A stretch of 64,000 nucleotides of DNA from assembly GCA_022764505.1 (NCBI GenBank), contig JALEQJ010000053.1:23353-87352 (forward strand). Direction: 5' to 3'. Under the pieces are notes generated by a model. The model saw only the letters and a program-made list of their open reading frames with translations, was not told the DNA's origin and made no database searches. The DNA comes from Phocaeicola sp. Its GTDB lineage: Bacteria; Bacteroidota; Bacteroidia; Bacteroidales; Bacteroidaceae. Made by a program: the position numbers and the translations under genes. Below are positions 10,073-57,034 of the stretch, in pieces. Every line of letters begins with the position of its first letter. The stretch's first letter is position 1.

Positions 10073-10084
10073 CCTGATTAAAAA

Positions 10085-10296
10085 CATTGTGCTAAGGGTA
10101 TCTTGGAGACTTATTACCTATTCAAGAGAGGGTAATATGAATATCTCTATTCCGTACTATAGTTTACATAAACCGCAATGGAAGTTTATAAAAACTATAG
10201 TGGAGGTTTACATAAACTCAAGTATGAAACAGAGATTCCCAATGATAGGATAAAAAAGAACGAGGCTGTAGCAAAAATGACTCTTGCTACAGCCTC
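10085..10296. repeat. Dispersed intergenic composite repeat, copy 1 (contains a 3-unit, 22-bp-period GTTTAYATAAAC array and a terminator hairpin)
   Basis: Clearly homologous to the reverse complement of 40937-41135 (ATTGTGCTAAG...CTACCTATTC...GAATATCTCTATT[C/T]CGTA...array...AAGTATGAAA...TTCCCAA[T/C]GATAGGATAAAAAAG...GAGGCTGTAGCAAAAAT). Confidence 0.85.
10262..10296 (-). terminator. Terminator hairpin downstream of tpx
   Basis: GAGGCTGTAGCAaaaatgactctTGCTACAGCCTC, 3' of tpx. Confidence 0.7.
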
Positions 10297-10318
10297 CTAT
10301 CTTTTTCTACTACGCTAC

Positions 10319-29719: not shown

Positions 29720-29815
29720 AATACTATAAACCTGCATCGAAGTTCACATAAACCGTGTTTGGGTTTATATCAACCTCTATGAAAGTTTATATAAACTTCG
29801 GCACGAAATAAAGAT
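29720..29815. repeat. Intergenic GTTTAYATAAAC array, about 22-bp period (upstream of gyrB)
   Basis: Units at 29742 (GTTCACATAAAC), 29763 (GTTTATATCAAC) and 29785 (GTTTATATAAAC), plus a degenerate unit near 29720; shared flank CACGAAATAAAGATT. Confidence 0.8.
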
Positions 29816-29932
29816 TAAAAATACAGATAAGGCATTTTTCCACACACGCCATACCTATCTTTAATATACCGCACAAGTACCCATTTCGTATTTTTAGCAA
29901 TAGAAAATAATTTCATATAGGCTTTTTTTTCG

Positions 29933-33405: not shown

Positions 33406-35016
33406 ATGAAGAAACAAATTTTATTCTCAATAGCACTCCTCACTACAGGAGTTACTTATGCACAAACTTCTTACGATGCTGCGAAGTACACCCATCAAGA
33501 ACTCAATGGAACTGCACGCTACGTGGGTATGGGAGGAGCTATGGGTGCATTAGGAGCAGACCTCAGTACCATGGGCAGCAACCCGGCAGGTATTGGATTA
33601 TTCCGTAGCAGCACAGCTTCTTTGACTTTCGGTCTGAACAGTACTCAGAACAAAGCAGACTTTATGGGTACACAAATCACACAGAACAAAACCAGAATGT
33701 CTTTTGACCAAGTGGGATTTGTCTCCTCTACACACGTAGGAAATAGAAGCAATGTACGCTTTTTCAACTTTGGCTTTAACTACCAAAAACGCAATAACCT
33801 CAACAATGTATTCCACTCTGCCGGCGTTTATCCCAATGGCTACTCACAAACAGTACAAATGGGGAATATGATGGCAGATATAGGCATTACGGAAGATGAA
33901 TTCAATAAAATTTACGACTACGAGAAAGGTGTCAGCCCTGCAGGCAACAATCCTTATCTAATAGATCGCTACCCTTATTTGGGTGTAATGGGAATCCGTA
34001 CCGGATTGGTGTCTTTACCCAAAACAGGCACAGCTCTCAAAGCTTTCCAAGCAGATAAGTTTGCTTATGAATCTACAGAAACAGGTGGCATACAGCAGTT
34101 TGATGTGAATATCTCTACCAATCTTAATGACCGCGTGTATTTAGGTGCTACAATAGGTGCTTACTACATAGACTACAAACGCTCTACTTTCTACAAAGAA
34201 GCTATCTACGATGGAAAACAACTCTCCAATGGTGGATTTGAGATAGAAGGCGCATACCGAATACTGAATGATCTCAAGACAGAAGGTACAGGATTGGATA
34301 TTAAATTAGGAGCTATATTCCGTCCAATAGAAGATTCACCATTCCGATTAGGTGTAGCCATACATACTCCTACATGGTACCAACTACAGGATACCTACTC
34401 TACTTTTATGGAAAGTGATATAGAATATAAAGATACACCCAAAACAGAAAGGAGACAAATAGGAGAAGCTACCTACGACTACACAAATGGCGACAATCTT
34501 CGTGAATATCGTCTGACAACTCCTTGGAAATTCAATGTAAGTGCCGGTACTATAGTAGGAGGTATTATGGCTATAGGAGCAGAATATGAACTGGCAGATT
34601 ACTCTACAGCAAGCCTCAAGTACAATGATGGAGTCCCAATGACACATCAAAATGATGTAATCAAAAGTACACTCAATGCTGTACATACCTTCAAAGTAGG
34701 ATTAGAAACACGCTTAACACCAGAGTTTGCTATCCGTGCAGGTTATAACTACACTTCTGCCCTCTTCAAGAAAGGTGCATACAAAGTATTGGACACAAAT
34801 GATATGCGCACAGACACAGAATTTAGTAACACTTTCGCAAGAAATACATTCACACTCGGTGCCGGCTATAGTGGAAAGCGTTTCTATGCAGACCTTGCAT
34901 ACAAATATGACACTACAAAGAGCGACTTCTACACCTTCAGCAGTGATGCACTCGCAGCTACAAAGGTAACCACAGACCGTCATCAAGTACTCTGTACTTT
35001 AGGACTACGTTTCTAA
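33406..35016 (+). CDS. Outer-membrane beta-barrel protein, OmpP1/FadL-like
   Basis: Signal peptide; GTARYVGMGGAMGALGADLSTMGSNPAGIGLFRSS; 536 aa barrel ending HQVLCTLGLRF. Confidence 0.82.
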   Translation: MKKQILFSIALLTTGVTYAQTSYDAAKYTHQELNGTARYVGMGGAMGALGADLSTMGSNPAGIGLFRSSTASLTFGLNSTQNKADFMGTQITQNKTRMSFDQVGFVSSTHVGNRSNVRFFNFGFNYQKRNNLNNVFHSAGVYPNGYSQTVQMGNMMADIGITEDEFNKIYDYEKGVSPAGNNPYLIDRYPYLGVMGIRTGLVSLPKTGTALKAFQADKFAYESTETGGIQQFDVNISTNLNDRVYLGATIGAYYIDYKRSTFYKEAIYDGKQLSNGGFEIEGAYRILNDLKTEGTGLDIKLGAIFRPIEDSPFRLGVAIHTPTWYQLQDTYSTFMESDIEYKDTPKTERRQIGEATYDYTNGDNLREYRLTTPWKFNVSAGTIVGGIMAIGAEYELADYSTASLKYNDGVPMTHQNDVIKSTLNAVHTFKVGLETRLTPEFAIRAGYNYTSALFKKGAYKVLDTNDMRTDTEFSNTFARNTFTLGAGYSGKRFYADLAYKYDTTKSDFYTFSSDALAATKVTTDRHQVLCTLGLRF

Positions 35017-35056: not shown

Positions 35057-35094
35057 AAAGGCTGTGGCAAATATTTATTTGCCACAGCCTTTTT
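35057..35094 (+). terminator. Terminator
   Basis: AAAAGGCTGTGGCAAATatttATTTGCCACAGCCTTTTT. Confidence 0.8.
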
Positions 35095-40936: not shown

Positions 40937-41135
40937 AGAGAGGGTGTATCAAAATGTATTTTTGCTACACCCTCTTGCTTTTTTATCCTATCGTTGGGAA
41001 ATTCTATTTCATACTTAAGTTTATGTAAACTTCCACTATGGTTTATATAAACTGTGATACGAAATAGAGATATTCCTATTTACCTCCTATGAATAGGTAG
41101 AAGTTCCCAAAATTCTCTTAGCACAATATAGGCTC
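40937..41135. repeat. Dispersed intergenic composite repeat, copy 2 (inverted relative to copy 1; 2-unit array plus terminator hairpin)
   Basis: Reverse complement closely matches 10085-10296; units GTTTATGTAAAC (41019) and GTTTATATAAAC (41041) 22 bp apart; terminator GAGGGTGTATCAAAATGTATTTTTGCTACACCCTC at the A2M side. Confidence 0.85.
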
Positions 41136-56610: not shown

Positions 56611-56687
56611 CTATCTATAAACTTCCATTGAAGTCTATATAAATCATACTTTGGTTTACATAAACTTCCTCCGAAGTCTACATAAAC
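56611..56687. repeat. Intergenic GTTTAYATAAAC-type array, about 22-bp period (upstream of thrS)
   Basis: Units at 56611 (degenerate), 56633 (GTCTATATAAAT), 56654 (GTTTACATAAAC) and 56676 (GTCTACATAAAC); spacings 22/21/22. Confidence 0.8.
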
Positions 56688-57034
56688 CTAACTAAGGAAC
56701 AAAATAATAGTAATAAAGCCAACATCATTATGAAAAGCCTAAAAACACAAGTATTGCATAGCAGCAGTATGTACACCACTCCTTCATCTTATTTTTCAAG
56801 AGTTTATTCATAACAGGGCTCTCCTACAAACTTATGATCAAAACAAAGAGAGAAAGAAGAATAGGCAACAAGATAAATATCTATAAAATAGGTATTGAGT
56901 TGCCATAAATCTCCTCTACAAAACTACAATCTTACACCAAGACAAGTAGGTTTTTCTCACTAAGAGCCTCATTTCTTAACGTATGACTATACAAAAACGT
57001 GGTACTTATTGAATACTTCCCGAAAAAGTTTCTG

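Follow-up and report, generated by a model that had tools for sequence, protein, structure and literature searches.

Insertion sequences of the IS1182 family have been described in staphylococci, where IS1272 and TnSha1 insert into stem-loops, often those of terminators, and in doing so delete the target stem-loop and leave no duplication behind (PMC5678879, PMC4923244). MITEs of IS1182 type are also already known, as exemplified by MITEPye1 of Paracoccus yeei (PMC11578231). Here we analyzed two related loci in the genome of a Phocaeicola species, and we consider it probable that both are left-truncated copies of an IS1182-type MITE that is mobilized in trans and replaces terminator stem-loops without duplicating its target.

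The two loci lie in inverted orientation within the window, as we call the whole stretch of 64,000 nucleotides that was analyzed; copy 1 occupies positions 10086-10296 on the plus strand and copy 2 positions 41129-40940 on the minus strand (Table 1). They can be aligned over approximately 190-210 bp, from ATTGTGCTAAG through the hairpin end, and display the same order of modules, namely a leader, palindromic 12-mers at 22-bp spacing, a tail and a hairpin. An earlier note on this DNA had claimed that the similarity extends beyond the 12-mers, and this was borne out by a BLAST comparison of positions 10080-10310 to the window, which yielded two blocks on the minus strand within 40940-41127, one covering the array, tail and hairpin (85% over 114 bp, E=2e-31) and the other the leader (80% over 71 bp, E=4e-12); leader, tail and hairpin thus align, and not the 12-mers alone. 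The same note had counted three 12-mers in copy 1 and two in copy 2, which agrees with the 22-bp period, and had estimated an extent of about 200 bp. This extent is correct for the shared part, but the element itself is larger, because all element sequence to the left of ATTGTGCT is absent from both window copies. The hairpin of copy 1 folds with -25.7 kcal/mol and that of copy 2 with -21.6 kcal/mol, both well below shuffled sequences (z=-8.0 and z=-5.3, respectively), and they are located at the 3' ends of genes, as had been proposed, 22 bp past the stop codon of tpx (PF08534) and 23 bp past that of the alpha-2-macroglobulin gene (bMG10/A2M).

Table 1. Modules of the two element copies in the window.
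Feature	Positions	Strand	Basis
Copy 1, leader module of the left-truncated element, from ATTGTGCTAAG up to the array	10086..10161	+	alignment with 41129-41053 and 25 other genomic copies
Copy 1, 12-mer array with three palindromic units, GTTTAYRTAAAC, spaced by 22 bp	10162..10217	+	repeat spacing
Copy 1, tail module and A-run	10218..10261	+	alignment of copies
Copy 1, right terminal inverted repeat, which is the predicted intrinsic-terminator hairpin for the minus-strand gene tpx, with the tail GTTCTTTTTT	10262..10296	+	folding; family boundary
Copy 2, leader module, left-truncated at the same ATTGTGC point as copy 1	41053..41129	-	alignment of copies
Copy 2, 12-mer array with two units, spaced by 22 bp	41019..41052	-	repeat spacing
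Copy 2, tail module and A-run	40975..41018	-	alignment of copies
Copy 2, right terminal inverted repeat and predicted terminator hairpin, 23 bp beyond the stop codon of the A2M gene	40940..40974	-	folding; family boundary

Complete copies of the element measure 705-747 bp (approximately 0.7 kb); they are foldback elements with no transposase inside and carry GAGGGTRTGTC at both ends. Examples include L006 (G000:C32:65196-65910, 715 bp), L009 (728 bp) and L011 (747 bp), as well as others. The terminal inverted repeats, GAGGGTRTGTCAAAAT, make up the extreme ends of the element. At the left end, a hairpin (GAGGGTATGTCAAAATAGGCATACCCTC) is followed by a T-rich run; the core forms nested hairpins, its left half (CAGGGTTA...CCTAACCCTGCCCT) being paired to its right half (AGGGCAGG...GAACCCTGCC), and after the core come the leader, the 22-bp array, the tail, an A-run and the hairpin of the right end (GAGGGTGTAGCAAAAATATATTTTGACACACCCTC). 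For the full element, a folding energy of -220.7 kcal/mol was obtained, versus -166 kcal/mol for shuffles (z=-7.6). Both ends have the form of a terminator hairpin whose T-run is directed inward, and therefore each end is terminator-like for transcription entering from outside. The absence of obvious terminal inverted repeats, noted previously from the window copies, is thus incorrect for the family, since complete copies have hairpin ends that match those of the IS1182 family; similarly, the hairpin that had been described as a terminator is the right-hand terminal inverted repeat itself.

Copy counts were obtained by similarity searches in the draft genome, which comprises 2,135,809 bases in 70 contigs and is 92.8% complete. 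A BLAST search with positions 10080-10310 gave 51 matches, and a query corresponding to the upstream/core part of a longer copy gave 85, tandem arrays included. When both are merged, the element is found at about 56 distinct places that add up to approximately 20.1 kb, or about 1% of the 2.14-Mb draft, and the family is therefore not limited to the window. Both parts are present at 23 of these places, the leader, array and tail only at 17, and the core only at 16. Copies are truncated at many different points, core modules are amplified in tandem at some loci, and the family is strongly modular. No full-length match was identified in 60 congeners and 392 other Bacteroidales genomes, in which matches were short and weak and several fell on the end hairpin; with such long queries few candidates were scored per genome, and highly diverged relatives may escape.

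Individual loci illustrate various arrangements of these parts. In L117 (G000:C53:23500-27500), at least six copies of a core unit of approximately 101 bp are arrayed in tandem; the array is interrupted by an insertion sequence that has ACGTGAGTTCGGGATAA as its ends and whose PF13612 transposase is disrupted by frame breaks. L118 (G000:C66:10300-12300) and L119 (G000:C11:54000-58000) are tandem series in which left core modules alternate with right ones; end hairpins are degenerate at most in L118, and none were seen in L119. The window also holds solo arrays at 29721-29830 and 56615-56700, in which 12-mers at a spacing of approximately 22 bp generate imperfect palindromes of approximately 90 bp, and about a dozen more of these solo palindromes, devoid of leader, tail and terminator ends, occur across the genome. 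At positions 35059-35090, following the gene at 33406-35016, a terminator (AGGCTGTGGCAAATATTTATTTGCCACAGCCT) is similar to the end hairpin of the element, and may be either a solo element end or an unrelated terminator. In a scan of genome contigs, among which the genome studied here may be missing, two 12-mers at 22-bp spacing matched mostly Alphaproteobacteria, with no match in Bacteroidota and no named relative. Pairs of GTTTAYRTAAAC palindromes at 22-bp spacing recur among Reyranella and related Alphaproteobacteria (L043, L045, L051, L053, L058, L062, L064, L065 and others), and are probably an unrelated operator.

The simplest reading of these sequences is that the element is a non-autonomous element (MITE) of IS1182 type, because the same hairpin ends flank intact IS1182 elements in congeners. 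Within its own genome, GAGGGTRTGTCAAAAT (at most one mismatch) occurs 19 times, in all cases inside element copies by coordinates, and the reversed control does not occur. In congeners, this motif and hairpin also open elements of approximately 1.8 kb that encode an IS1182-family transposase (NF033551, 473.5 bits, cut-off 270). The right end of these insertion sequences mirrors that of the MITE, with an A-run, a hairpin and GACACACCYTC; the terminal 16 bp of the element are identical (16/16) to the IS1182 left ends of G017, G002 and G022, and nearly so (15/16) to that of G060. The asymmetry between left and right ends is also common to both. The element is short, multi-copy, non-coding and bounded by terminal inverted repeats, as is characteristic of MITEs, and shares these repeats with IS1182 elements; an autonomous partner in the same genome is the IS1182-type MITE trait that it lacks. 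The transposase scores above the cut-off in 10 of 61 genus genomes, and a profile search detected none in the 92.8%-complete draft studied here, so that the earlier observation of no encoded transposase within the element extends to an IS1182 transposase anywhere in the draft; the partner has most likely been lost from, or is unassembled in, this genome. A DDE_Tnp_1 search of the draft detected only the PF13612 insertion sequence, one copy of which interrupts the array in L117; it is unrelated and was rejected as a partner. Similar hairpins are present in other Bacteroidales outside any insertion sequence observed, and therefore some convergence among terminators is possible. In G022, the locus L244 (G022:C23:15500-19500) resembled a parallel element, since an IS1182-like left end lies beside 5.5 tandem copies of a 22-nt unit (TGATGCGGATGAGTTGAGCAAC), but a right end was looked for and not found.

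The earlier note had proposed a search for target-site duplications, and none was found: the nine complete MITE copies, whose ends are defined by the terminal inverted repeats, carry no direct duplication at their flanks. This MITE trait is thus missing, as expected for stem-loop-replacing IS1182 members, and its absence fits the published behaviour of IS1272. Inverted similarity between flanks did not attain significance among the nine MITE copies (p=0.10); for the congener insertion sequences it reached p=0.009, a value that leans on one site (L209, G060:C1:4683200-4688800). Here, an IS1182 copy lies between perfect 66-bp direct repeats, each of which is a complete stem-loop, and such a duplicated stem-loop had been foreseen by the IS1272 authors as a variant of their own model (PMC5678879). 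Read outward, the sequence that immediately flanks the MITE ends is rich in T (50% versus 31% further out), which would be expected of A/T-runs left over from a bidirectional terminator. At the site of one G060 insertion sequence, the related genome G019, in which the site is empty (n=1), displays AAAGCGCAA-loop-TTGCGCTTT beside an A-run.

The location of the element tracks gene 3' ends, and not promoters. A neighbouring gene could be called, by a simple ORF caller, for 33 element ends. Of these, 25 face the 3' end of a gene and the other 8 are located elsewhere; in control gaps of the window, the corresponding share among gene ends is 45% (p=3.3e-4), several of the samples being small. The stop codon lies at a median distance of 32 bp, and at 20-41 bp for 19 of the 25 ends that face a 3' end. 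Comparable placement was observed for the IS1182 copies of congeners, in which 27 of 38 ends face gene 3' ends (p=1.0e-3), many of them at 21-30 bp. Native terminator stems of other genes in the window start mostly 18-42 nt past the stop codon, and since the 20-41 bp spacing matches this range, the element starts where a native terminator stem would. The earlier suggestion that the element supplies terminators at gene 3' ends as it spreads is well supported, termination itself being predicted, and our analysis indicates that the element most likely replaces native terminators with its own.

Selection against harmful insertions alone could also enrich copies near gene 3' ends, in which case the transposase would have no preference for terminators. 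This would agree with the general tolerance of intergenic repeats at 3' ends and with the 8 of 33 ends located elsewhere, but we consider it unlikely, since the narrow distance from the stop codon, which matches that of native terminator stems, argues for target preference over selection alone; the same placement of congener IS1182 elements, the stem-loop at one of their empty sites and the IS1272 precedent also speak against it. A somewhat less likely explanation is that of an intergenic repeat similar to BOX or ERIC, spread by recombination or an unknown enzyme, whose likeness to IS1182 ends would stem from convergence among terminators. The lack of an IS1182 transposase in the genome, the strong modularity with tandem amplification of core modules, and the related hairpins that stand alone in other genomes are all in keeping with such a repeat; however, it would have to account for 16 terminal bp identical to the ends in G017, G002 and G022 with the same left/right asymmetry, for an end motif that is found nowhere else in the genome, and for a placement relative to stop codons that is common to the element and to congener IS1182.

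It is very unlikely that the element is a structured RNA or regulatory module (an attenuator, a small RNA or a protein-binding array) kept for its function, with dispersal being incidental. Although the strong fold of the full element (z=-7.6), the palindromic 12-mers spaced by two helical turns and the solo palindromes of approximately 90 bp with the same 12-mers would suit a module of this kind, a search of seven copies against Rfam gave nothing above the gathering score and three sub-threshold matches only, copies are truncated at many points, the element is absent from the congeners searched, and its location follows gene 3' ends instead of promoters.

We therefore favor an IS1182-type MITE, which would be mobilized in trans by a transposase of that family. 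Its insertion would replace the stem-loop of a resident terminator without target duplication, and the terminal hairpin would then become the predicted terminator of the adjacent gene. Later deletions would give rise to partial copies, including both window copies, in which the hairpin has been kept beside tpx and the A2M gene; if the MITE is placed in the manner of IS1272, its terminal hairpin would have replaced the native terminators of these two genes.

Most mobile elements harm the site where they land. The element and the congener IS1182 copies, in contrast, appear to target terminators and to bring one at each end, which would be a simple way of staying harmless. With 33 scored ends, this is a multi-copy case in which stem-loop-replacing transposition can be tested in Bacteroidales, and in which one can measure to what extent a mobile element can exchange the terminators of a genome. 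We would give only a small chance to the bolder proposal of a selfish element that, by swapping the terminators of its host for its own as it spreads, has replaced dozens of gene 3' ends within a single species, and whose structured interior, with its foldback core, tandem-amplified modules and palindromic 22-nt arrays, has gained a role for the host, for instance as an insulator between convergent genes or as a binding site for a chromosome protein.

By description, the element is reminiscent of the BOX elements of Streptococcus pneumoniae, which are modular repeats with an internal unit in variable number; we know of no BOX elements with terminator-hairpin ends. The IS1182 elements of congeners (including G060, G017, G002 and G022) share with it the terminal GARGGTGTGTCAAAAT, the left hairpin with its inward T-run, the A-run and hairpin on the right, and the placement at 21-30 bp past stop codons, but they are approximately 1.8 kb long and encode a transposase; the element, in contrast, has no transposase gene and its interior is a foldback. 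IS1272 and TnSha1 resemble it in their stem-loop or terminator targets and in the lack of target duplication (PMC5678879, PMC4923244); they are, however, autonomous or composite, and replacement was seen directly for them and is inferred for this MITE. MITEPye1 differs by its 1-3 chromosomal copies, its direct-repeat borders and the fact that no internal array was reported (PMC11578231). BrickBuilt and MITE464/PgRS of Porphyromonas gingivalis are likewise intergenic MITEs with a leader, a minisatellite and a tail, the BrickBuilt minisatellite measuring 23 nt versus 22 nt here; they are, however, unrelated in sequence and have IS5-type ends (GAGACCTTTGCA) where the element has GAGGGTRTGTCAAAAT, and membership in this group was thus rejected (Table 2 of PMC4596501). 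In the element described here, IS1182 terminator ends are combined with a foldback core that is also amplified in tandem and with a 22-nt array of variable length, and the copy number is high.
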